A stretch of DNA of 64,000 bases from positions 248,001 through 312,000 of the forward strand of contig NZ_SNWQ01000008.1 of NCBI RefSeq assembly GCF_004361855.1, read 5' to 3'. Numbering within the stretch: the first letter of the stretch is position 1; each line of letters opens with the position of its first letter. Source of the DNA: Kribbella caucasensis. Its GTDB lineage: Bacteria > Actinomycetota > Actinomycetes > Propionibacteriales > Kribbellaceae. The notes under the pieces were generated by a model that was given only the letters and a program-made list of their open reading frames with translations, was not told where the DNA came from and did not search any database. Made by a program: the position numbers and the translations under genes. Below, piece by piece: positions 42,102 through 54,394 of this stretch.

Positions 42102-42451
42102 GTGACGGCTCCTTCCAGGAGCATTGATTGACTTTGCGAGACCCGCGGTTGATCCGCCGTACGAGAAGGACGGCGACATGCGTCGAGGGGGTGGCCTGCT
42201 CATGCCAGAGGGCGCAGCATCTCTGCGCAACAAGGACTTCCTGAAATGGCACTTGTCCGTACCACACCACTGAAACCAGACGCCCGGTACCCGCAGCCAA
42301 ACAGACAGTCCGAGCGGTTGATTGGTGGTGGATGTCATCTGACGCCTTCTTCTGATCGGCTGCCTAGGTAGCCCAACAGAGCCTCAACAAACCTCCATGT
42401 CGCCAAGCGTCCGATGTTTGTCAGCCGCGGTCGAAATCAGCGCTACTCCAC
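42102..42451. other. Divergent intergenic region without gene
   Basis: About 350 bp between the envelope operon and the heptose operon. No convincing coding frame. It should hold the promoter of the envelope operon; a GGGTACC motif on the minus strand (around 42286-42292) lacks a matching -35 box. Confidence 0.5.
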
Positions 42452-42476
42452 GTGTAGGAGGCGCTTTGCGGGGTAC
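42452..42476 (+). promoter_or_regulatory. SigB/SigF-like promoter of heptose operon
   Basis: GTGT (42452-42455), 15-bp spacer, GGGTAC (42471-42476). The 12 bases GGGTACCTACGC at 42471-42482 recur exactly before the hemerythrin gene (62365-62376). Confidence 0.5.
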
Positions 42477-42506: not shown

Positions 42507-44141
42507 ATGCGGGTGCTGGGGGTGAACGCGATTTTCCACGATCCGTCGGCGGCCTTGGTCGTCGACGGCAGGATCGTCGCGGCGGCAGAGGAAGAGCGGT
42601 TCAGCCGGCGCAAGCATGGAAAGCGCCCGGTGCCGTGGTCGGCGTGGGAACTGCCCGAACAGGCGATGCGATGGTGCCTCCAAGAGGCCGGCCTTCGGCC
42701 CGAGGACATCGACGTGGTGGGCTACTCGTTCGACCCCGCGCTGTGTGTCGACCTGGCCGAACTGGGCGTGTCCGACCCCGGCGATCGGGTGCGAACCGAC
42801 TACGCCCGCCGTGCGCCCAAGTTTCTCAGCGCGGCTCTGCGCGGCCTGGATCCGGCCAAGGGGACGTTCGTGCCGCATCATGTCGCTCATGCCGCGTCCG
42901 CCGGCCTGGCAGCGCCGTACCAGCAGAGCGCCTGCCTCGTTCTCGATGGCCGGGGCGAGCGGGCCTCGCATCTGGCGGGCAGGTACGACGGACCAGAGCT
43001 GCAAGTGTTGGCCACACAGGAGCTGCCCCACTCGCTCGGTTTGCTGTACGAGGACCTGACCGACCACCTCGGGTTCCTCCGCTCGAGCGATGAATACAAA
43101 GTGATGGCGTATGCCTCCTACGGCAAGCCACGCCACCTTGCCGACTTCCGAGAACTGGTCCGGACGACAGATGACGGCGGATTCCGGACGGCGAAGGTGG
43201 ACTGGTCGGCGTACGCACCGAAGGTCGAACCTGGCGACCAACTCACAGGCGCCCATGCGGACCTTGCCTGCAGCGTGCAGCGACGGCTGGAGGAGGTCAT
43301 GCTCGAGCTCGCGACATGGCTGCACGAGCAGACCGGCACACGGGCGCTGACCATGGCCGGCGGCACCGCCCTCAACTGTGTAGCCAACTCGGTCCTGGCC
43401 CGTAAGGGTCCGTACGACCACGTCTGGGTCCAGCCTGCCGCGGGAGACGCTGGTACGGCGCTGGGTGCCGCCCTTCAACTGAGTGCCGCAAGCGGACGAC
43501 CCGAACCGATGCGAACACCCGCACTCGGGCGTGGCTGGACCGACGAGCAACTGAGGGCACGACTCGAGCAGGCCGCGCTGCCCTTCGAGACACCCACGGA
43601 CCTGGCGGCAGTGATCGCACAAGAGTTGGCTGACGACCGGATTGTCGCCTGGTATCAAGGCAGGTCGGAGTGCGGACCACGTGCCCTCGGACATCGTTCG
43701 TTGCTCGCACATCCCGGGCGTCGGAAGAACCTGGAGCGTCTCAACGACATCAAAGGCCGCGAACAGTTCCGGCCGATCGCGCCGCTGGTGCTGGCAGACC
43801 GCGCCGCCGAGATCTTCGACGGCCCACTCCCCAGCCCCTACATGCTCTTCGTGCACGACGTCTCACCAGCTTGGCAGCAACGGATCCCGGCGGTCGTCCA
43901 CGTCGACGGGACCGCGCGCATCCAGACGGTGGACCCGGCGGACGAGTCGCTGCTGGCAAGGCTTCTCGATCAGTTCGAGCTGCGCACCGGGCTACCAGTT
44001 CTGGTCAACACCAGTCTCAACACCGCCGGACGCCCAATGGTCGACAGCCCGTCGGATGCGCTCGAGCTGTTCGGCTCGACGCCTGCGGACGTGCTTGTCA
44101 TCGGCCCTCATGTCGTACGGCGGGCGGGAGCGTTCCGTTGA
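42507..44141 (+). CDS. Carbamoyltransferase (NodU/CmcH family)
   Basis: 544 residues from ATG at 42507 after GAGGAGG. Transfers carbamoyl from carbamoyl phosphate to a hydroxyl, often of a sugar. Family motifs: GVNAIFHDPSAALVVDGRIV, HHVAHAASA (metal His), SSDEYKVMAYASYG, GGTALNCVANS, CGPRALGHRSLLA and LVNTSLNTAGRPMVDS, so both the Kae1-like and YrdC-like halves are complete. First gene of a nine-gene overlapping operon with heptose enzymes, so the acceptor is probably a heptose or the glycan carrying it. Confidence 0.93.
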   Translation: MRVLGVNAIFHDPSAALVVDGRIVAAAEEERFSRRKHGKRPVPWSAWELPEQAMRWCLQEAGLRPEDIDVVGYSFDPALCVDLAELGVSDPGDRVRTDYARRAPKFLSAALRGLDPAKGTFVPHHVAHAASAGLAAPYQQSACLVLDGRGERASHLAGRYDGPELQVLATQELPHSLGLLYEDLTDHLGFLRSSDEYKVMAYASYGKPRHLADFRELVRTTDDGGFRTAKVDWSAYAPKVEPGDQLTGAHADLACSVQRRLEEVMLELATWLHEQTGTRALTMAGGTALNCVANSVLARKGPYDHVWVQPAAGDAGTALGAALQLSAASGRPEPMRTPALGRGWTDEQLRARLEQAALPFETPTDLAAVIAQELADDRIVAWYQGRSECGPRALGHRSLLAHPGRRKNLERLNDIKGREQFRPIAPLVLADRAAEIFDGPLPSPYMLFVHDVSPAWQQRIPAVVHVDGTARIQTVDPADESLLARLLDQFELRTGLPVLVNTSLNTAGRPMVDSPSDALELFGSTPADVLVIGPHVVRRAGAFR

Positions 44142-45583
44142 GCGGCCTCACCATCGTGATCCCGACGATCGGCCGTAGCTGCCTGACGAATCTGATCGCC
44201 GATCTCGCATCGCAACAGTTGCACGAGGCAACGATCTGCGTGGTGGACGACCGCCCGGATCCGGACCGTCCGCTGACCTGTGCTCACCGCGTACTGCGCT
44301 CCGGCGGCCGAGGTCCGGCCGCCGCCCGCAACGTCGGCTGGCGAGCGGCAGACACCGAGTGGATCGCTTTCCTGGACGACGACGTACGACTCCCTGAGGG
44401 CTGGCTCTCTGCGCTGTACGACGATCTTCGGCGGGTCGACGACCGCGTTGCCGGCGTACAAGGTGTGATCGAGGTACCGACCTCGGCGAAGCCTACCGAC
44501 TGGGAACGCAGTACGGCGGGACTTGAACGCGCCAGATGGGCTACCGCGGACATGGCGTATCGCCGCGCCGCGCTGGAGCAGGTGGGCGGATTCGACGAGC
44601 GGTTCCCCAGGGCTTTCCGCGAAGATGCCGATCTGGCGCTGCGGATGAGGCGCCATGGCTGGAGGCTTGTCGAGGGACACCGGCACGTGATCCATCCCGT
44701 GCGCAACGAGGGCTTTTGGATCAGCGTCCAAGTGCAACGCGGCAATGCCGACGACGCGCTGATGCGCGCCGCCCATGGCCGGCGCTGGCGCACCCTGGCC
44801 GAGTGTCCACCGGGCCGGCTCGAGTGGCACGTCGCGACGGTGCTCTGCGCGGCCGCTGCTGTCCTGATCACCAGGAAAGCCACCGCGATCTGGGTCCTTC
44901 TGACCGCCGACTTCGCCCGGCGTCGCATCATGCCCGGTCCGCGGACCTCAGACGAGGTTATTCGAATGGCGGTCACGTCTGCCGTCCTGCCCTTCGCTGC
45001 TGTCTGGCATCGCGCGCGTGGATCATGGCGGCATCGCGGCAGTAAGGCTTGGACGGGAAATGTCAGCGCCGTCCTCTTCGATCGAGACGGAACGCTCATC
45101 CAGGACGTGCCCTACAACGGCGATCCCGATCAGGTGCACCCCGTGCCACAGGCTCACGAAGCACTGCGCAGGCTGAAGCGGGCCGGACTGGCTGTCGGGG
45201 TGATCACGAACCAGTCCGGGATCGGCCGAGACCTGATCACTGCCGAAGAGGTTGCCGCGGTCAACAGACGGATCGACGAGTTGCTCGGTCCGTTCGACAC
45301 CTGGCAGGTCTGTCCGCACTCGGAGGCCGACGGCTGCGCCTGCCGTAAGCCCGCGGCAGGACTCGTTCTGGCAGCGGCTGCAGACCTCGGCGTCCCACCG
45401 AGCCACGTGGTGGTCATCGGCGACATTGGCTCCGATGTCGCCGCCGCCGAAGCCGCGGGGGCTCGCTCTGTGCTGGTGCCCAACGAGAAGACCCGTGCAG
45501 ACGAGGTGCGGGCGGCCCGCATCGTGCGGCCAGATCTCCTCGCCGCGGTCGACCACGTACTGGAGAACGGACGGCGTCGATGA
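44138..45583 (+). CDS. Fusion of family 2 glycosyltransferase and GmhB-like HAD phosphatase
   Basis: 481 residues from TTG at 44138, overlapping the carbamoyltransferase stop. Residues 1-230 are a GT-A family 2 glycosyltransferase (IPTIGR, metal-binding LDDDV at 79-83, catalytic FREDADLALR). A linker with two hydrophobic stretches follows (230-295). Residues 309-481 are a HAD-IIIA phosphatase like heptose-1,7-bisphosphate phosphatase GmhB: DRDGT with Asp315 and Asp317, TNQSGIGRD, zinc set Cys392-His394-Cys400-Cys402, and GDIGSD. Joining glycan assembly with heptose-bisphosphate dephosphorylation in one chain is unusual. Confidence 0.85.
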   Translation: MSGLTIVIPTIGRSCLTNLIADLASQQLHEATICVVDDRPDPDRPLTCAHRVLRSGGRGPAAARNVGWRAADTEWIAFLDDDVRLPEGWLSALYDDLRRVDDRVAGVQGVIEVPTSAKPTDWERSTAGLERARWATADMAYRRAALEQVGGFDERFPRAFREDADLALRMRRHGWRLVEGHRHVIHPVRNEGFWISVQVQRGNADDALMRAAHGRRWRTLAECPPGRLEWHVATVLCAAAAVLITRKATAIWVLLTADFARRRIMPGPRTSDEVIRMAVTSAVLPFAAVWHRARGSWRHRGSKAWTGNVSAVLFDRDGTLIQDVPYNGDPDQVHPVPQAHEALRRLKRAGLAVGVITNQSGIGRDLITAEEVAAVNRRIDELLGPFDTWQVCPHSEADGCACRKPAAGLVLAAAADLGVPPSHVVVIGDIGSDVAAAEAAGARSVLVPNEKTRADEVRAARIVRPDLLAAVDHVLENGRRR

Positions 45584-46578
45584 GAACCGTGCTGATCATC
45601 CGGATGGACAACGACGGCGACGTCCTGCTGGCCGGCCCCGCCGTCCGGGCCGTCGCGGCGACCGATCGGGTCGTGCTGCTGGTGGCGCCCTCAGGTGAAC
45701 AAGCAGCGAGGCTGCTACCAGGTGTCCGCGACGTGTACGTCTGGCCGTGCCCGTGGACAGGTTTCGATCCGCCGCAGGTCGACCGGCGCAGCGTGAACAC
45801 GCTGATCGATGCACTGGCGATCCAGCATATCGGCGCGGCGATCGTGCTCACGTCGTACCACCAGAGCCCGTTGCCGATGGCCCTGATCCTGCGTATGGCC
45901 GGTATCAAGTTCGTCGCCGCCGACTCGGAGGACTACCCGGGATCACTCCTGGATCTGCGGCACCGGGCCGCCTGCGGTCATGAGGTCGAGCGCTCGCTGG
46001 CACTGGTGAGGGCGCTGGGCTACAACCTGCCGAACGGTGACGACGGCCGGCTGATGATCAAGGATGCTCTGCCGGCCGTTGACGACGGGCCGTTCATCGT
46101 CGTCCATCCCAGTGCGTCGGTGCCCGCCAGGACCGCCTCCGCGGATCACTGGACAGCGATGGTCAAGGCCCTCGCGGCCGATGGGAACAGGGTCGTGGTC
46201 ACCGGCTCGGCAGCTGAACGGGACCTGACCGCGAAAGTTGCCGGAAGCAACGCGGTCGATCTCGGCGGCCGCACCAGCTACCGGCAACTGGCGGCGCTGC
46301 TGCGGGCCGCCCGCGTGGTCGTCGTCGGGAACACTGGTCCCGCACATCTCGCCGCCGCCGTCGGAACCCCGGTGGTGTCGCTCTTCTCCCCCGTCGTGCC
46401 CGCTGACCAATGGGCGCCCTGGCGGGTGCCCTCCGTCGTCCTGGGCGACCAGCAGGCCCCGTGCCGCGCCTCGCGAGCGAGGGTTTGCCCGATCCCCGGG
46501 CACCCCTGCCTGGACGACGTGGCGCCGGAGGAAGTGGTCACTGCCACTCGCACGTTGATCGAGGAGGTCGCCGCATGA
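45580..46578 (+). CDS. Glycosyltransferase family 9 (heptosyltransferase-like)
   Basis: 332 residues. GT-B fold: N-terminal VLIIRMDNDGDVLLAGPAVRA, C-terminal donor region VVVHPSAS-type (FIVVHPSASVPAR) and GNTGPAHLAAAVGTPVVSLF, which in WaaC/WaaF contacts ADP-heptose. Family 9 members normally transfer heptose in lipopolysaccharide; an actinobacterium has no LPS, so the acceptor is another glycan. Overlaps both neighbours by four bases. Confidence 0.88.
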   Translation: MRTVLIIRMDNDGDVLLAGPAVRAVAATDRVVLLVAPSGEQAARLLPGVRDVYVWPCPWTGFDPPQVDRRSVNTLIDALAIQHIGAAIVLTSYHQSPLPMALILRMAGIKFVAADSEDYPGSLLDLRHRAACGHEVERSLALVRALGYNLPNGDDGRLMIKDALPAVDDGPFIVVHPSASVPARTASADHWTAMVKALAADGNRVVVTGSAAERDLTAKVAGSNAVDLGGRTSYRQLAALLRAARVVVVGNTGPAHLAAAVGTPVVSLFSPVVPADQWAPWRVPSVVLGDQQAPCRASRARVCPIPGHPCLDDVAPEEVVTATRTLIEEVAA

Positions 46579-47534
46579 GGATCCTGGCATGGCATGTCCA
46601 CGCGGCCTGGATGACATCGTTCGTCCAAGGCGCGCACGAGTACTACGTCCCGGTGCTGTCGGATCGTGGACCGGACGGCATGGGACGCGCGCAGACATAC
46701 CCGTGGCCCGACTCCGTGCGGGAGCTGACCCCCGAAGAGCTTCGGCGGACCGACTTCGACGTGGTCGTTCTTCAGCGCCCCCACGAACTCGAGCTTTTCC
46801 ACCGCTGGACCGGCCATGCACTCGGCCGGAACGGCCGACCTGCCGTGTACGTCGAGCACAACACACCAAGGGGGGATGTCAACGACTGGCGTCACCCGCT
46901 GGCCGACCGCGGCGACATCCCCATCGTGCACGTGACAGAGTTCAACCGGACGATGTGGGACAACGGTCTCGCGCCCGCAGAGGTGATCGAGCACGGTGTT
47001 CCGGACTACGGGTACCAGTACACCGGAACCCTCGACTCACTCGTCGTCTCGATCAACGAACCCGTCCGGCGGTCACGAGTCGCGGGTTTGGATCTGGTCG
47101 CCACCATCGCCGAGCAGGTACCGGTCAGCGTTTACGGCCTGGGTACGGAGGAGCTGTCCGCGCGGATCCACCGCGGACTGGCCGTCACGGGCTCGCTGTC
47201 CCAGGACGAGTTGCACCGGCGGATGGCGATGCACTTCGCATACCTGCACCCGTACCGCTGGACCAGTCTCGGTTTGGCACTGATCGAGGCGATGACGCTG
47301 GGCATGCCCGTCCTCGTCGTCGCGGCCACTGCCGCACCGGAGGCTGTCCCGCCCGAGACGGGAGTCGTCACCTCGAGGCTCGATCTACTGGCGCGCACCG
47401 CGTCGCGCTGGCTGTCGGACCCCGACGAGGCCCGTCGATGCGGTCTCGCGGCGAGAGCACACGCGCTGGCTCATTTCGGGCTGCCGAGGTTCCTCGACGA
47501 CTGGGACCGCATGCTGAAGGAGGTTTGCCGATGA
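46575..47534 (+). CDS. Glycosyltransferase (GT4-like)
   Basis: 319 residues from ATG at 46575, coupled by ATGA overlap. A GT-B protein with the C-terminal retaining-type signature HPYRWTSLGLALIEAMTLGMPVLV; the N-terminal acceptor half (ILAWHVHAAWMTSFVQG, VYVEHNTPRGDVNDW) is conserved only in small actinobacterial clusters as far as I can tell. Donor unknown; a nucleotide heptose is possible. Confidence 0.8.
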   Translation: MRILAWHVHAAWMTSFVQGAHEYYVPVLSDRGPDGMGRAQTYPWPDSVRELTPEELRRTDFDVVVLQRPHELELFHRWTGHALGRNGRPAVYVEHNTPRGDVNDWRHPLADRGDIPIVHVTEFNRTMWDNGLAPAEVIEHGVPDYGYQYTGTLDSLVVSINEPVRRSRVAGLDLVATIAEQVPVSVYGLGTEELSARIHRGLAVTGSLSQDELHRRMAMHFAYLHPYRWTSLGLALIEAMTLGMPVLVVAATAAPEAVPPETGVVTSRLDLLARTASRWLSDPDEARRCGLAARAHALAHFGLPRFLDDWDRMLKEVCR

Positions 47535-48733
47535 GAATCGCGATGGTGTCCGAGCACGCCAGCCCGCTGGCCGTACTCGGCGGTGCCGACGCGGGTGGAC
47601 AGAACGTCCATGTGGCGGCGCTCTCCCAGGCACTCGCCGGCCGCGGTCATCAGGTCGAGATCTACACGCGACGTGATGACCCCGACAGCCCGGAGCGCGT
47701 GCCGTTGGGCGCAGGCGTTGACGTGGTCCATGTACCAGCCGGACCCGCCCAGCAGGTTCCGAAGGACAGCCTGCTGCCGTACATGCAGACGTTCGGGCAG
47801 TGGATCGGGCAGCGCTGGTCCCAGGATCCCCCGGACGTCGTACATGCTCACTTCTGGATGTCGGGCGTCGCCTGCCTCGAGGCGCGCCGCGCGGTTTCCT
47901 TTCCGCTCGCGCAGACGTTCCACGCCCTCGGTGTGGTGAAACGCCGCCACCAGGGTGCCGCCGACACCAGTCCACACCGGCGGGTGGAATTCGAGGCTCG
48001 GTTGGCGTCCGAGGCGGACGCCGTCATCGCGACCGCCACCGACGAAGTACGTGAGCTACTGGCTCTCGGAGCACCCGCTGGTTCGCTGCACGTCGTTCCC
48101 TGTGGCGTGGAAATCTTCAAGCCCTCGCTGCCGCAGGATCACTGGTGGCACGGCCATGACGGGCGCATCCTCTCCCTCGGCCGTTTGGTCGAACGCAAAG
48201 GTGTCGACACCGTTCTCGAGGCCGTCAGCCGGCTTCCTCGAGCGGAGCTCGTCGTCGCCGGCGGCCCCACTGACGTCTTCGAGGATGATCCTGAGGTACG
48301 GCGGTTGCGTGCGGAAGCGGAGCGTCTCGGGGTGGCGGATCGAGTCCACCTGGTCGGTGCGGTGTCCCGGACCGACATACCCGCGCTGATCCGTTCCGCT
48401 GACGTGGTCGTGTGTACACCCTGGTACGAACCATTCGGCATCGTGCCGCTGGAAGCGATGTCCTGCGGCCGGCCGGTCGTCGCCGCCGCGGTCGGTGGCC
48501 TGCTCGATACCGTTGTCGACGGCGTCACCGGCATCCACGTCCCGCCGAAAGATCCCGAGCGACTGGCCGCAGTGCTCGCCGAGCTCCTCGGCAATCCGCC
48601 ACTGCGTAGACGGCTGGGCCGCGCCGGCGCGGCAAGGGTGGCGCAGCGATACACCTGGACGACCGTTGCGGCCGAGACCGAGGACGTCTACAGCCGCATC
48701 ATGGCGCCGCTGCCCACGGGCAGGACACGCTGA
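47531..48733 (+). CDS. Glycosyltransferase family 4
   Basis: 400 residues. Retaining GT-B enzyme: N-terminal glycine loop GGADAGGQNVHVAALSQAL resembles sucrose-phosphate-synthase/MshA-type transferases; C-terminal donor motif CTPWYEPFGIVPLEAMSCG with the EX7E pair. It shares four bases with the gene before and one with gmhA after it. Confidence 0.9.
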   Translation: MRIAMVSEHASPLAVLGGADAGGQNVHVAALSQALAGRGHQVEIYTRRDDPDSPERVPLGAGVDVVHVPAGPAQQVPKDSLLPYMQTFGQWIGQRWSQDPPDVVHAHFWMSGVACLEARRAVSFPLAQTFHALGVVKRRHQGAADTSPHRRVEFEARLASEADAVIATATDEVRELLALGAPAGSLHVVPCGVEIFKPSLPQDHWWHGHDGRILSLGRLVERKGVDTVLEAVSRLPRAELVVAGGPTDVFEDDPEVRRLRAEAERLGVADRVHLVGAVSRTDIPALIRSADVVVCTPWYEPFGIVPLEAMSCGRPVVAAAVGGLLDTVVDGVTGIHVPPKDPERLAAVLAELLGNPPLRRRLGRAGAARVAQRYTWTTVAAETEDVYSRIMAPLPTGRTR

Positions 48734-49341
48734 TGGCAGGATTCGGATCGCTCACCCAACATCTCGTGCATCTACACGACGGACTGGTGAGCCTGGAACG
48801 CCAGGACTCGACCATCGATGCCTGTGGCCGTGAGCTGGCCGACCTCCTGTCGAGCGGCCACCGACTACTTGCTGCAGGCAACGGTGGGAGCGCGGCCGAG
48901 GCACAGCACTTGACCGCCGAGCTGGTCGGCCGCTTCGAGGCGCCGGACCGGCCCCCGCTGTCCGCCATCGCTCTGCACGCCGAGACGTCGAGCCTGACGG
49001 CGATCGGCAACGACTTCGGTCCTGACGACATCTTTGCCCGCCAGGTCCGAGCGCACGGGCGTCCAGGCGACGTCCTGCTGCTGCTGTCCACGAGCGGCCA
49101 CAGCACGAACCTGCTGACGGCCGCCACGACGGCGCGGTCCGGTGGACTTCAGGTCTGGGCTTTCACGGGACCGCGACCGAATCCGCTGGCAGCCGCGGCA
49201 GACCGGGCCGTCGCGGTCGAGTCCCCGGCGCCCACCGCCGTACAGGAAGTCCAGCTTGTCGCGGTGCACGCCTTGTGTTCGGCGGTCGAGCGCCATCTGC
49301 ACACCGTCGATCCGCACGACCTCGAGAAGGTGAGCCGATGA
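48733..49341 (+). CDS. gmhA: Sedoheptulose-7-phosphate isomerase
   Basis: 202 residues, SIS fold, usual GmhA length. Converts sedoheptulose-7-phosphate to glycero-manno-heptose-7-phosphate, first step of nucleotide-heptose synthesis. Motifs AAGNGGSAAEAQHLTAELVG (phosphate binding, catalytic Glu) and LLLLSTSGHSTNLL are complete; His in VQLVAVHALCSAVE is the second catalytic residue. ATG shares one base with the stop of the glycosyltransferase. Confidence 0.92.
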   Translation: MAGFGSLTQHLVHLHDGLVSLERQDSTIDACGRELADLLSSGHRLLAAGNGGSAAEAQHLTAELVGRFEAPDRPPLSAIALHAETSSLTAIGNDFGPDDIFARQVRAHGRPGDVLLLLSTSGHSTNLLTAATTARSGGLQVWAFTGPRPNPLAAAADRAVAVESPAPTAVQEVQLVAVHALCSAVERHLHTVDPHDLEKVSR

Positions 49342-50681
49342 CCATACGGGTCCTGGTGGTCGGGGACGTCATGCTCGACCGTGACATCGAAGGCGACGTA
49401 CACCGAGTGAGTCCCGACGCGCCTGTTCCTGTCGTTCAGGTCGAAGGCACCAGCGAGCGTGCCGGCGGTGCGGGTCTCGCGGCCGTCCTGCTCGCACGGG
49501 AGGGCGTCGAAGTCCGGCTGGCGACCGCGCTGGCCGATGACGAGCCCGCCAAGCGACTCGCCGCGTTGTTGACCGAACGCGTGCCGGTGACGGCGATTCT
49601 GGGCTCCGCCGGCACCCGGTGCAAAACGAGAATACGCAGCGCCGGGCAGTCGCTGCTGCGGCTGGATATCGAGACACCGGACGGTTTCGACGACGCGTGT
49701 GATGTCGCTGCCCTGGAAGAAGAGCTCGACCAGGCCGACGCAGTCCTGGTCTCGGATTACGCCGGCGGTGTGGTCAGCCATCCGGAGGTCCATCGGGTGC
49801 TGCGCCGGTGGGCCCCCCAGCGGGCCATGGTGTGGGACCCGCACCCGCGCGGCGCCGCGCTCGTGCCCGGGCTGACCCTCGCAACCCCCAACCGGGCCGA
49901 GGCCCGTCACTTCAGCGGCAACCCGTCGGCACCACTCGACGTGCTCGCGGCCGAGCTTCGCGACCGGTGGCAGGCCTGGGCTGTCGCGGTCACGGATGGC
50001 GGGGCCGGTGTCTTCACCGCAGCCGGGGGCACGCCGCCGTTCTTCGCGCCGGCACCGTTCAACCACTCCGGCGATGCCTGCGGCGCCGGCGATCGCTTCG
50101 CCGGTACGGCGGCAGTCAAGCTCGGAGCAGGTGCGACGGCCCGGTCCGCCATCGCGGCTGCAGTCGACGACACGGCCAGTTGGCTCGCCGCCGGAGGCGT
50201 CAGCGCCAAGGCGGTTGTCGGTGGAGCAGCATCGGGGGTGGATGCCGCCGCGGTCATTCGCCGCGTCCATGCGGCCGGTGGCACTGTGGTGGCCACCGGT
50301 GGCTGCTTCGATGTTCTGCACGCCGGCCACATCGCCAGTCTGGAGGCCGCGAGGCGGCTGGGCGACGCGTTGATCGTTCTGGTCAACTCCGACGCCAGCG
50401 TCCAACGACTGAAGGGCGCCGACCGCCCGATCAACCCGGAGCAGGACCGCTGCCGGGTGCTCGAGTCGTTGCGATGCGTCGACGCGGCCATCGTGTTCGG
50501 TGGCAACGACCCGTGCGAGCTGCTCGATGAACTGCGGCCCGACGTCTGGGCCAAGGGTGGCGACTACACGGAGGAGATGTTGCCTGAAGCACCGGTCGTC
50601 AGGAGCTGGGGCGGCCGCGTCGTGCTCGTTCCGTACCTGCCGGGACGATCCACCACCTCGATCTTGGAAGGAAGAACCTGA
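49338..50681 (+). CDS. hldE: Bifunctional heptose-7-phosphate kinase / heptose-1-phosphate nucleotidyltransferase
   Basis: 447 residues from ATG at 49338 (ATGA overlap). Residues 1-300 are a PfkB-type sugar kinase with GDVMLDRD, GGAGLAAVLLAREG and the catalytic NHSGDACGAGDRF; residues 310-447 are a nucleotidyltransferase with GGCFDVLHAGH (the HxGH site) and the LKGADRPINPEQDR segment. Makes heptose-1,7-bisphosphate and, after GmhB-type dephosphorylation, ADP- or GDP-heptose. Both halves appear intact. Confidence 0.93.
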   Translation: MTIRVLVVGDVMLDRDIEGDVHRVSPDAPVPVVQVEGTSERAGGAGLAAVLLAREGVEVRLATALADDEPAKRLAALLTERVPVTAILGSAGTRCKTRIRSAGQSLLRLDIETPDGFDDACDVAALEEELDQADAVLVSDYAGGVVSHPEVHRVLRRWAPQRAMVWDPHPRGAALVPGLTLATPNRAEARHFSGNPSAPLDVLAAELRDRWQAWAVAVTDGGAGVFTAAGGTPPFFAPAPFNHSGDACGAGDRFAGTAAVKLGAGATARSAIAAAVDDTASWLAAGGVSAKAVVGGAASGVDAAAVIRRVHAAGGTVVATGGCFDVLHAGHIASLEAARRLGDALIVLVNSDASVQRLKGADRPINPEQDRCRVLESLRCVDAAIVFGGNDPCELLDELRPDVWAKGGDYTEEMLPEAPVVRSWGGRVVLVPYLPGRSTTSILEGRT

Positions 50682-51367
50682 TGAGCCTGGCCCGAGTGGT
50701 CGTCACCGGTGGCGCCAGCGGACTTGGTGCCGCCGTGGTCGCAGCCGTGCGCAAACATGGTGGAACGGCGATCGCGCTCGACCGGCACAAGCCGTCAACG
50801 GACGATGTGCCGTGGATCGAGGTCGACCTCGCCGATCCTGCCGCCGCCGAACCGGCCCTCGCCGCGGCCGAGGACGCGATCGGCGGACTGACCGGCGTGG
50901 TGACGGCTGCGGGAATCGACGCCTGCGGCCGGATTGAGGACGTGTCACTGGACGATTGGGTTCGGGTGATCCAGGTCAACCTCATCGGTACGGCGGCGGT
51001 CGCGCGGGCGGCGGTGCCACGGTTGGAGAGGAGCCATGGGCGGATCGTCACCGTCGCCTCCACCCTCGGTCTACGGGCGCTGAGCGACGCCACAGCTTAC
51101 TGCGCGTCCAAGTTCGGCGTGGCCGGATTCAGCCGGGCACTGGCGGTGGAGACAGCGGGACGGGTCGGTGTCACCATGCTGGTGCCGGGCGGGATGCGGA
51201 CCTCCTTCTTCGATGGGCGACCGGAGCAGTACAAACCTGGTGACGACGCGATGCTGAACGATCCGGAAGCCGTTGCGGAGAGCGTCATTCACGCGCTGAG
51301 CCAACCCGACGGCGTCGAGATCCGCGAACTCGTGGTCTGTCCGTCGGTCGAGCCCTCCTGGCCGTGA
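50681..51367 (+). CDS. SDR-family oxidoreductase
   Basis: 228 residues. Classical SDR: TGGASGLGAAVV at the N terminus, VTAAGIDACG, catalytic Ser in TVASTLG and YCASK. Could alter the sugar (oxidation or epimerisation through a keto form) within the heptose pathway; exact reaction unknown. Start shares one base with the hldE stop; stop overlaps the next gene by four. Confidence 0.85.
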   Translation: MSLARVVVTGGASGLGAAVVAAVRKHGGTAIALDRHKPSTDDVPWIEVDLADPAAAEPALAAAEDAIGGLTGVVTAAGIDACGRIEDVSLDDWVRVIQVNLIGTAAVARAAVPRLERSHGRIVTVASTLGLRALSDATAYCASKFGVAGFSRALAVETAGRVGVTMLVPGGMRTSFFDGRPEQYKPGDDAMLNDPEAVAESVIHALSQPDGVEIRELVVCPSVEPSWP

Positions 51368-52290
51368 CGGCTCTCCTCGCTCTGCGCGCCCTCGGTCTGG
51401 GTGACGCGCTGACCGGTGTCCCCGCGTTGCGCGGTCTTCGACGCCGGTACGCCGACCACCTGCTTCTTCTGGCCGGGCCCGAGCCGGTGTCCAACTGGCT
51501 TGCCAGTCTCGGGGTGGTCGACGGCGTCGTGTCGACGACTGATCTGTCTGGGCGACCGCCCGGACGCCGGCTGGGTTCCCATGTGGCCGTGAATCTGCAC
51601 GGGCGCGGGCCGCAGAGCCATCAGTTGCTGCAGGCTGCGGCACCTCGCGAGTTGATCGCGTTCGACTCTGCGGCCGCCGGTCACCTCGCGGGTTGCCGAT
51701 GGTTCGTCGACGAGCACGAGGTGGGTCGATGGTGCCGTCTCGTTGCCAGCGTCGGCGCTTCATGCGATGCGGCGGACCTGCGGCTGCCGATCACCGCAGC
51801 GAGCGATCGGGCGGTGGTGATCCATCCGGGCGCGGCGAGTATGGCGAGGCGGTGGCCGGTCACGCGGTGGGCGCACGTCGCCGCTCACTTGCGCTCCGAC
51901 GGGCATCACGTCGTACTGACCGGAACGGAAGCCGAGTTGTGCCAGGCATTGTCGGTGGCCTCGGGGGCCGAGAACCTGAGCGGGCGACTGGGTATCCACC
52001 AGTTGGCCGAGCGCGTCGCGTCGGCGGCATTGGTGTTGTGCGGCGACACCGGCATCGCGCATCTGGCCACAGCCCTCGGTGTTCGGTCGGTGACACTGTT
52101 CGGGCCGGTTCCGCCTACGTGGTGGGGTCCTGCGATCGACCTCGACCTGCACACCGTGCTCTATCACGGCAGCCGCGTGGGCGATCCGCATGCCGACCGG
52201 CCCGACGAAGGGCTGTTGCGAATCAGTGTCACCGAGGTGCTGACCGCGGCACGGGCACAGCTTGCCGGAACCAGGCCACCGTCGACATGA
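51364..52290 (+). CDS. Glycosyltransferase family 9, second copy
   Basis: 308 residues. GT9 features: [20 protein letters not shown] at the start, [19 protein letters not shown] and [23 protein letters not shown] in the donor half. Distinct from the family 9 enzyme at 45.6 kb, so two heptosyl additions are likely. Last gene of the operon; its last 62 bases overlap the convergent NAD-dependent sugar enzyme gene. Confidence 0.88.
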
Positions 52291-53191
52291 GTCCACCCCG
52301 CCAGTCGACCGTGGGTTTCCAGCCCAAGACCTGAGTGGCGAGCGTCGTGTCCGGGCGTCGTACGCCGGGATCGTCGACCGGGCGGTCCACGAACTCGATG
52401 GTCGAGTCCGAACCTGTCGCGGCAATGACGTCCTGAGCGATGCATAGAACTGAGCGCTCGTCCGGATTGCCGATGTTGATCGGCCCGGCATGATCGCTGA
52501 ACGCGAGCCGGAGGATGCCGTCGACGGTATCGGAGACATGGCACACCGACCGGGTCTGGCTGCCGTCACCGGCCACCGTCAGCGGATCGCCGGCCAGTGC
52601 CTGCCGGACGAAGGTTGGAATCGCGCGGCCGTCGTCGGGCCGCATCCGCGGTCCATAAGTGTTGAAGATGCGGACTATCGCCGTGTCAACGCCCTCGCTG
52701 CCCCGATAAGCGGTGGTGAGCGCCTCGGCATAGCGCTTTGCCTCGTCGTACACCCCGCGCGGACCTATGGGATTGACGTGTCCCCAGTACGTCTCGGGTT
52801 GCGGGTGCACCTGCGGGTCGCCGTACACCTCCGACGTACTGGCGAGCAGGAACCGGGCGTTCTTCTCCTTCGCCAGGCCGAGCGAGTGCCACGTGCCGAT
52901 CGCACCGACCTTGAGCGTCTGGATCGGCAGCCGGAGGTAGTCGACCGGGGACGCCGGACTGGCGAAGTGAAGCACGACGTCTACGTCGCCCGCGACGTGG
53001 ACGAACCCGGTCAGATCGCAACGCGTGAAGGTGAACTCGGGCCGCTCCATCAGGTGGGCGATATTGGCCGGCGTGCCGGTCAGCAGGCTGTCCAGGCAGG
53101 TCACTCGATGCCCGTCCGCGAGCAGTCGCTCACACAGGTGACTCCCCAAGAATCCTGCCCCACCGGTAACCACCACGTGCGCATGCTCCAT
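52229..53191 (-). CDS. NAD-dependent nucleotide-sugar epimerase/decarboxylase (UXS-like)
   Basis: 320 residues. Extended [21 protein letters not shown] loop, [11 protein letters not shown], catalytic Thr/Ser in [10 protein letters not shown] and the YxxxK pair in [11 protein letters not shown]. The SPASPxxY and [10 protein letters not shown] motifs are those of UDP-glucuronate decarboxylase and its relatives; it could alternatively act as the heptose epimerase of the convergent operon. Start ATG at 53191 directly after a consensus SigB/SigF-type promoter. Confidence 0.88.
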
Positions 53192-53200
53192 CCGGCCTGG

Positions 53201-53225
53201 GTACCCCTGCCGCTCCCCTGAAAAC
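53201..53225 (-). promoter_or_regulatory. Consensus SigB/SigF promoter of UXS-like gene
   Basis: Minus strand GTTT (53225-53222), 15-bp spacer, GGGTAC (53206-53201): a full match to the SigB/SigF consensus. Ends ten bases before the ATG, so the mRNA is nearly leaderless. Confidence 0.7.
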
Positions 53226-53292: not shown

Positions 53293-54075
53293 TCAGGCGG
53301 CCAGTGCGTCTTGGAGGATGCTCATGATCCGGCGCAGAAGCCGCGAGACCTGCATCTGGCTGACCCCAATCTCAGCGGCGATCTCGGCCTGGCTCCAGTG
53401 ATCGATCATCCGCCGGCGGAGGATCAGCTTGTCCCGAGCGGCGAGGTTCTCGACCGCCGGGCGCAGCGTCTCGAGCTGGTTGACCAGCTCGAACGTGTTC
53501 TCCTGGTCCGGCATCAGGCTGCCGAGCGACATCGCGGACTCGACGCCCACCGGAGCGTCCAGCGACACTGGACGAAAGCATCCCAAGGCACGTTGCGCAT
53601 CCCTGACATCCCCGAGTGGTACGCCGATACGGTCGGCCAACTCCTGGTCGGTCGGCCAGCGGTGCAACCGCGCAGCCAGCTCACCCTCGACGGCATTGAT
53701 GGACGCCTGCAGGTTCTGGATTCGCCGCGGCGGCCGAACACTCCACGCGTAGTCCCGGAAATGCCGCTTGAGCTCGCCTCGAATGGTCGGGAAGGCATAC
53801 GACCGGAAGTCCGTGTCCGGCCCTGGTACGTATCCCTGCACCGCTTTCACGAGTCCGACGTACGCGACCTGGAACAACTCCTCCCGCTCCACCCCCCGTC
53901 CGTCGTACCGTAACGCGAGCGACCGCGCCATCGCGGTACCCTGCACGATCGCTTCAGAGAGCAGGTCCGCGCGACGAGCACCGGCGGCGTTGGCCGCGTC
54001 GCGAAGCAGAGTCTCGGTGAGTGTGCGCTGTTGTTCCCAAGGCACAGGCGACGCAGATACAGAACAACTAGTCAT
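53293..54075 (-). CDS. SigB/SigF/SigG-family RNA polymerase sigma factor
   Basis: 260 residues from ATG at 54075. Sigma region 2 (SLALRYDGRGVEREELFQVA, then GLVKAVQGYVPG and FRSYAFPTIRGELKRHFRDY), region 3 (WPTDQELADRIGVPLGDVR) and region 4 with helix-turn-helix (WSQAEIAAEIGVSQMQVSRLL) are all present, the pattern of stress/sporulation sigma factors. No anti-sigma gene is next to it. Lies just before the UXS-like gene promoter. Start could be further upstream, up to 54174. Confidence 0.93.
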   Translation of the reverse strand: MTSCSVSASPVPWEQQRTLTETLLRDAANAAGARRADLLSEAIVQGTAMARSLALRYDGRGVEREELFQVAYVGLVKAVQGYVPGPDTDFRSYAFPTIRGELKRHFRDYAWSVRPPRRIQNLQASINAVEGELAARLHRWPTDQELADRIGVPLGDVRDAQRALGCFRPVSLDAPVGVESAMSLGSLMPDQENTFELVNQLETLRPAVENLAARDKLILRRRMIDHWSQAEIAAEIGVSQMQVSRLLRRIMSILQDALAA

Positions 54076-54394
54076 CAGATCGACACTGGGGCGATCAATC
54101 CCGCAAAAGCTGGCACCGTCTTGACCATGGCGAGTTCGTCCCAGGTTCCCCTGGTCTGCAGTACCCCGGGTCATGCAGGGTCATTCACAGTCGGTTGCAC
54201 TTCAGACGGGAAGTCGGATGTCTGCTCGGCCGCTCAGTTCGCGGTGGCTCCGAGCGCGCAAGGGCGTGTAGAGCCGCGAGTAAGTGATCGTGCGTCGGGG
54301 CACCTAAGGGATACAGCGCCGGTCCGCCCCGGGCCGACTGAAACGTCGGGGCGTCGGCGTTCAACAGCGCAGCGCTGGGCCGCCCAAGCGGCTG
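54076..54394. other. Divergent intergenic region without gene
   Basis: About 320 bp between the sigma gene and the desaturase leader hairpin. No convincing coding frame; should hold both promoters. A GGGTAC on the minus strand (GTACCC at 54161-54166) lacks a GTTT-type -35 partner. Confidence 0.5.

Follow-up and report, generated by a model that had tools for sequence, protein, structure and literature searches.

What does an organism without lipopolysaccharide (LPS) make with a set of heptose genes? The question is raised by a 64,000 bp stretch of the Kribbella caucasensis genome (assembly GCF_004361855.1, contig NZ_SNWQ01000008.1, positions 248,001–312,000; hereafter, the window), in which an earlier note had described an operon of nine plus-strand genes for a carbamoylated heptose glycan of unknown kind. 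The kind is known: the operon is homologous to the cwg operon of Streptomyces coelicolor, and together with a tenth gene it forms a variant of that system. We consider it likely that this ten-gene, cwg-type unit directs the stress-controlled, cytosolic assembly of a short carbamoylated oligosaccharide of heptose and pentose, probably for the cell envelope. As the earlier note had supposed, the organism appears to be one without LPS; no LpxC match was found in the 9.46-Mb genome, by a search that was positive in 4 of 14 control genomes.

The operon is real (Table 1). Its nine open reading frames (ORFs) are complete and successively overlap by 4, 4, 4, 4, 1, 4, 1 and 4 bases, which bears out the layout first described, and the enzyme kinds named then (carbamoyltransferase, fused phosphatase, GT9 glycosyltransferases, GmhA, HldE and a short-chain dehydrogenase/reductase, SDR) agree with the domains assigned by Pfam and NCBIfam. 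For the carbamoyltransferase (CarbT), the start at 42507 is preferred over that of a longer ORF from 42414, because a GGAGG-type site precedes it and a promoter motif lies upstream. The end originally given, 53191, is in fact the start codon of an undescribed, minus-strand tenth gene, which shares 62 bases with the end of the GT9b gene and encodes a protein like UDP-glucuronate decarboxylase (UDP-xylose synthase, UXS). This gene is part of the unit, since it is retained with the operon in all seven same-genus relatives that carry the latter; each has the ten genes in the same order, convergent tenth included. The product composition first proposed, which lacked this gene, is thus incomplete.

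Table 1. Features of the cwg-type unit and its surroundings (positions in the window).
Feature	Position	Strand	Basis or remark
Nine-gene operon	42507–52290	+	nine complete ORFs
CarbT: O-carbamoyltransferase (GdmN/TobZ/NodU family)	42507–44141	+	PF02543, PF16861
GT2 glycosyltransferase fused to GmhB-type HAD-IIIA phosphatase	44138–45583	+	PF00535, TIGR01656, TIGR01662
GT9a: GT9 (heptosyltransferase-type) glycosyltransferase	45580–46578	+	PF01075
GT4a: GT4-like GT-B glycosyltransferase	46575–47534	+	PF00534
GT4b: GT4 glycosyltransferase, similar to Tll1590 and MshA	47531–48733	+	
GmhA-type sedoheptulose-7-phosphate isomerase (SIS)	48733–49341	+	phosphoheptose isomerase 5i01 match
HldE-type bifunctional heptose-7-phosphate kinase / heptose-1-phosphate nucleotidyltransferase	49338–50681	+	PfkB and cytidylyltransferase-like
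Classical SDR oxidoreductase	50681–51367	+	PF00106
GT9b: GT9 (heptosyltransferase-type) glycosyltransferase	51364–52290	+	PF01075
Tenth gene: convergent, UXS-like	52229–53191	-	UXS1 match
Conserved 9-mer AGCGCTACT	42439–42447	+	directly upstream of -35 element
SigB-type promoter motif GTGTAG-N13-GGGTAC before the operon	42452–42476	+	putative, motif-based
SigB-type motif GTTTTC-N13-GGGTAC directly before the tenth gene	53201–53225	-	putative, motif-based
Sigma factor gene of the SigB/SigF/SigG family, next to the unit	53293–54174	-	TIGR02980

The S. coelicolor cwg operon was reportedly described by Hong et al. in 2002. It is treated as a sigma-E target, and its promoter has been printed, 147 bp before the start codon (PMC6767563). 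A search for this promoter with at most 2 mismatches returned 7 of 392 genomes of one genus, with a single exact match (G421, the one locus examined), which ends 147 bp before a UXS-like ORF. We take that genus to be Streptomyces; in five Streptomyces loci, the region preceding the UXS-like gene gave no match to the published promoter. The G421 locus holds twelve genes in the order UXS-like, CarbT, GT2, HAD, GT9, GT4, GT4, GmhA, HldE, GT9 and two GT2-like (the last named by Pfam). Since ten of these twelve match proteins of the window, the operon is of the cwg type. Compared by way of this locus, S. coelicolor cwg (SCO6179–SCO6190) and the Kribbella unit share 10 of 12 gene kinds at 44–68% identity, nine of them in the same order.

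The two systems also differ: (i) the UXS-like gene comes first and co-directional in cwg, whereas it is last and convergent in the window and its seven relatives, (ii) GT2 and HAD, separate in G421, are fused in Kribbella, (iii) Kribbella has an added SDR, which was not matched in the cwg locus of G421 (E 1e-5), (iv) the two trailing GT2 genes of cwg are not in the Kribbella unit, the last of them giving no genome match at E 1e-20 in a search that had no positive control and did not include the other, and (v) cwg has a sigma-E promoter where the Kribbella operon has a SigB-type upstream motif. Within the literature and genomes searched, the variant—SigB-type motifs, convergent UXS-like gene, fused GT2–HAD, added SDR and accessory segment—is new.

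Conservation was assessed in species genomes scanned with the genus HldE alignment, the best 80 of at least 527 relatives being kept as loci (60 stretches of at least 21 kb and 20 of less than 21 kb). At 40% identity or more, GmhA is matched in all 80, followed by GT9a (74), GT4b (73), GT2/HAD (72), GT4a (71), SDR (67), GT9b (65), CarbT (42) and the UXS-like protein (36). The fusion is signalled in 28 of the 80 loci by a single GT2/HAD match of more than 430 aa.

How would such a unit make its sugar donors? The GmhA-type isomerase would act on sedoheptulose-7-phosphate, the HldE kinase domain would phosphorylate heptose-7-phosphate, the GmhB-type domain would remove the 7-phosphate and the second HldE domain would activate heptose-1-phosphate. 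The first of these proteins matches phosphoheptose isomerase 5i01 (126 bits) and keeps Glu63 in 87/87 and His179 in 86/87 homologues. HldE matches 4e84 with its kinase domain and 5x9q (a putative cytidylyltransferase) with its transferase domain, the GAGD aspartate and HxGH histidine being unchanged in 88/88. The best solved match of the HAD domain is heptose-1,7-bisphosphate phosphatase 4pnh (HisB matches too); in the alignment with its solved matches, the DxD and the Cys/His loop are present. We take the GmhA Glu and His, the PfkB GAGD, the HxGH, and the HAD DxD and Cys/His loop to be catalytic, and it is on catalytic residues and synteny that the heptose-enzyme names are based.

The HldE transferase domain ends in YLPGRSTT, and the Arg of this ending recurs in 76 of 88 homologues. 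According to excerpts of PMC11461863, a commentary on Tang et al. 2024, Arg as the fifth residue of the motif (F/L)XXGXSTT, whose first residue is Tyr in the window, permits CDP- and UDP-heptose, and the Kribbella enzyme may thus use CTP or UTP. The same excerpts place functional NDP-heptose (nucleoside-diphosphate-heptose) enzymes in bacteria, archaea, viruses and some eukaryotes. The Kribbella unit has the first three enzyme types of the ADP-heptose pathway (GmhA, HldE, GmhB, HldD) in common with it, catalytic residues included; besides the HldE Arg, it differs in that no HldD above cut-off was found in the genome (the best match scores 94 bits, the cut-off being 274.6), so D-glycero-D-manno-heptose would be expected. 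The tenth gene was ruled out as HldD (53 bits against the cut-off of 274.6). Its protein scores 334 bits against UXS1, compared with 132 bits for the next different enzyme among solved structures, and Ser120, Glu121, Tyr148 and Lys152 (Ser-Glu, YxxxK) are unchanged in 44/44 homologues. Since it matches a UDP-glucuronate decarboxylase, a pentose donor is likely besides NDP-heptose; it would supply UDP-xylose or another UDP-glucuronate-derived pentose.

Among solved structures, CarbT is nearest to GdmN (286 bits) and TobZ (264–267 bits), and His124, His128, Asp147, Arg392 and Arg397 are unchanged in 48/48 homologues. These neighbours are antibiotic enzymes, and they favour reading the locus as a secondary-metabolite cluster in which an antibiotic-like scaffold is glycosylated with heptose and carbamoylated, as in septacidin; the available text of PMC11461863 does name Streptomyces septacidin as a use of NDP-heptose, and occurrence within the genus is patchy (see below). 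We find this very improbable, as none of the ten is a scaffold gene, related gene sets are present in many actinobacterial families, and the S. coelicolor set is under envelope-stress control. In the carbamoylated oligosaccharide that we favour, CarbT would cap a single hydroxyl, plausibly one of heptose, by analogy with HepII of the Pseudomonas LPS core, in which, according to extracts of PMC8005017, WapO carbamoylates heptose. That inner core, compared by description, likewise combines heptose, heptosyltransferases and heptose carbamoylation, whereas Kribbella has no LpxC match and has extra GT4, GT2, SDR and UXS-like genes.

The oligosaccharide itself would be built in the cytosol, to a short, defined length, by the five glycosyltransferases (one GT2, two GT9 and two GT4), with the GT9 enzymes adding heptose. 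GT9a scores 36 bits against heptosyltransferase I (2gt1/6dfe), and GT9b 40 bits against heptosyltransferase II (1psw); GT9a lacks the RWP motif of GT9b, in which Trp164 and DTG are unchanged in 76/76 homologues and Pro165 in 74/76. GT4a was modelled by AlphaFold with a mean pLDDT (predicted local distance difference test) of 90.3, and its predicted fold matches GT4-type enzymes of varied acceptors in the PDB, including BshA, Tll1590, TarM, PimB' and PglA. The acceptors of BshA and Tll1590 are small, those of TarM, PimB' and PglA polymers or lipids. GT4b, at 229 bits against Tll1590 and 164 against MshA, resembles enzymes with small acceptors.

No flippase, polymerase or ligase was recognized among the ten gene products by Pfam and NCBIfam. 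This argues for a product of defined length, and also means that genes elsewhere would be needed for its export and attachment. Near the 80 loci, recurring extra genes form an aldehyde-dehydrogenase cluster (38 loci), a GT2 cluster (23) and a UDP-glucose-dehydrogenase-type cluster (15; one member confirmed by Pfam), and three further clusters, present in 40, 35 and 18 loci, seem to be their antisense shadows. The few that could be named include no exporter, polymerase or ligase, in a search that a rarer exporter could escape (mechanical ORF calls, clusters in at least 6 loci kept, ten representatives examined, two of them by Pfam).

The missing export genes could also be read as pointing to a soluble small oligosaccharide (compatible-solute-like or a signalling glycoside), made wholly in the cytosol by a GT4 that starts on a small phosphorylated acceptor. 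In line with this, no strong membrane segment is evident from hydropathy, whose 19-residue mean peaks at 2.04 in GT4a, predicted to be a soluble-type GT-B fold; the GT2 part has a borderline hydrophobic stretch near residue 235. The SigB-type motifs described below would suit such a product too, as would the nearest relatives of GT4b, MshA and Tll1590 (labelled sucrose-phosphate synthase). MshA presumably binds its acceptor phosphate by Lys78, Tyr110, Thr134 and Arg154; the GT4b residues aligned to Lys78 and Arg154 are unchanged in 80/80, but Phe and Ala stand in place of Tyr110 and Thr134 in 80/80. Further, the fold of GT4a also matches enzymes with polymer or lipid acceptors, export genes elsewhere could serve, and the homologous cwg operon responds to a cell-wall antibiotic (PMC6767563). 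We therefore hold a soluble product to be unlikely, and an oligosaccharide exported and attached by genes elsewhere to be the better reading.

When would the unit be expressed? Upstream of CarbT, all eight aligned genus loci carry GTGTA and, 13–14 further bases after the -35 hexamer, GGGTAC, the site starting -55 to -65 before CarbT in otherwise poorly conserved DNA; AGCGCTACT is identical in 8/8 and occurs once in the window, both strands considered. An equivalent GTTT...GGGTAC site precedes the tenth gene at -30 to -34 in six of the eight loci (L036 has no site, L038 a different one at -64), and its closeness to the start codon suggests a leaderless transcript. Both motifs fit the SigB-type pattern (GNNT-type -35, GGGTAC-type -10 at 12–15 nt), while the strict sigma-E pattern GAAC-N15–19-CGTC was not found within 400 bp upstream in any of the eight. 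In other genera, a slightly looser pattern finds the CarbT site in 1 of 39 upstream regions (L094, Micromonospora) and in 2.4% of shuffles. Loci of the Cellulomonas/Georgenia type (e.g., L041, L050, L054) thus share the ten genes, their order and the convergent UXS-like gene with Kribbella, but not this site. The site before the tenth gene was found in 3 of 36 cases in other genera and in 1.5% of shuffles; counted over both strands, the window has 15 promoter-like sites of the SigB type. Given this rarity, chance occurrence at one place in 8/8 loci is unlikely, though the eight loci are related. Separately, the UXS-like gene of L113 is preceded, at 37 bases, by a GTTT...GGGTAC site.

With both transcription units behind SigB-type motifs, the glycan would probably be made under general (osmotic, envelope or stationary) stress. 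According to excerpts of the respective papers, the published promoters of the nine SigB homologues in S. coelicolor resemble these motifs (PMC8346170), and cwgA of that species is activated by salt without upregulation of sigE (PMC13011467), which fits control by stress. The earlier guess of a perhaps stress-induced product thereby gains the support of conserved motifs, whose function is itself a prediction.

Several observations weigh against the picture as a whole. Firstly, none of the GmhA, GmhB-type or HldE proteins reaches a heptose-specific NCBIfam cut-off (HldE 279 against 521 bits, rfaE_dom_II 175 against 181.5, rfaE_dom_I 154 against 345, GmhA 156 against 276, GmhB 117 against 178), and the HAD part scores above the cut-off of a more general model, TIGR01656 "histidinol-phosphate phosphatase domain" (117 against 84); the earlier proposal that these enzymes yield NDP-heptose from sedoheptulose-7-phosphate is plausible by its retained residues and falls short by these scores. 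Secondly, CarbT and the UXS-like gene, seen in only 42 and 36 of the 80 loci, look like modules. Thirdly, the donors and acceptors of the glycosyltransferases are not assigned, the product is a prediction, and promoter function is read from motifs. Lastly, in the text available to us, heptose is absent from both S. coelicolor wall polymers that PMC11481543 names, so that no known structure there matches the predicted glycan, and PMC4630627 picks SCO6185 (cwgG) among the most stably expressed S. coelicolor genes, which disfavours strong inducibility in that species. From sequence comparison, then, we infer NDP-D,D-heptose and UDP-pentose donors, a short carbamoylated oligosaccharide, stress control and an envelope destination.

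In the parts of the cwg literature available, the operon is still termed a putative, tentative or predicted cell-wall-glycan operon, and no product structure was found there. The combination proposed here (NDP-heptose, UDP-pentose, carbamate, five glycosyltransferases and no export gene of its own) would give the cwg product a testable composition, and the SigB-type variant would add a second kind of organism and condition for switching a cwg-type unit on.

How did the unit come to lie here? In a family sample of 38 genomes (the window's own included, all Kribbella), strong HldE matches (E <1e-50; next best 2.6e-22) occur in eight, absence in the other 30 being judged by this search; the unit is accessory. 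G015 is among the genomes that lack a strong HldE match. On one of its contigs, the window is matched up to 42394 and again from 53289, in the same orientation and with 41 bases between. The ten genes and both promoter motifs thus behave as one present/absent segment of ~10.9 kb, at whose borders no useful repeats were found. Flanking sequence varies between most genomes with the operon, but is common to L032 and L033 and to L034 and L035. The eight genus carbamoyltransferases form one clade (100/100); with midpoint rooting, this clade falls together with a largely Micrococcales one (99/97), away from two Nocardioidaceae sequences, and no match was obtained in 10 listed same-order genomes outside the family at the thresholds used. 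The unit was likely gained from elsewhere.

More widely, a class sample of 148 genomes (own included; HldE at E up to 1e-60, strong CarbT at E <1e-200) contains 33 genomes with HldE and 26 with strong CarbT, a 27th match of 42% identity being set aside. In 22 of the 26, CarbT and an HldE match share a contig, less than 10 kb apart, which is the actinobacterial co-occurrence that the earlier note had proposed to look for; ten of the 33 genomes with HldE lack a strong CarbT match.

Beside the unit, and outside the segment absent in G015, stands a sigma factor gene that scores 193 bits against TIGR02980 (cut-off 234). A same-subfamily SigB-family gene lies beside the operon in six of the eight operon genomes (the window and 5/7 relatives), and matches at E 1e-68 or better occur in 8/8 operon genomes and in 8/30 others (one-sided Fisher 2.6e-4, kinship uncorrected). 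A sigma factor dedicated to the unit is not supported: the linked copies are not one clade, and close orthologues (80–86%) occur in G005 and G015, both without a strong HldE match. A bolder proposal, which we regard as doubtful, is that cwg-type units make no wall polymer but a short soluble or lipid-linked carbamoylated heptose/xylose oligosaccharide as a stress metabolite, and that in Kribbella a self-contained cassette of ~10.9 kb has repeatedly settled beside SigB-family sigma genes, exchanging sigma-E control for SigB-type.

Outside the window, ~19 kb past the sigma factor gene of Table 1, there is another SigB-family gene of that subfamily (G000:C8:320727-321458), and several of the SigB-type sites in the window fall at 53–63 kb, around the sigma gene (e.g., 54186–54161, minus strand). 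Among the matches listed, SigB-family homologues also occur within 10 kb of the cwg-type loci L064, L069, L085, L093, L043, L052 and L113 (Microbacteriaceae, Mycobacteriaceae). The aldehyde dehydrogenase family gene near 38 of the 80 loci is mostly on the opposite strand (representative L100:15817-17649). Finally, a second HldE (36–39% identity to that of the window) and other-strand GT9 genes were seen in L043, L044, L064, L069, L085, L090, L093, L101 and L108, which suggests two heptose pathways side by side in these Microbacteriaceae/Brevibacterium-type loci.

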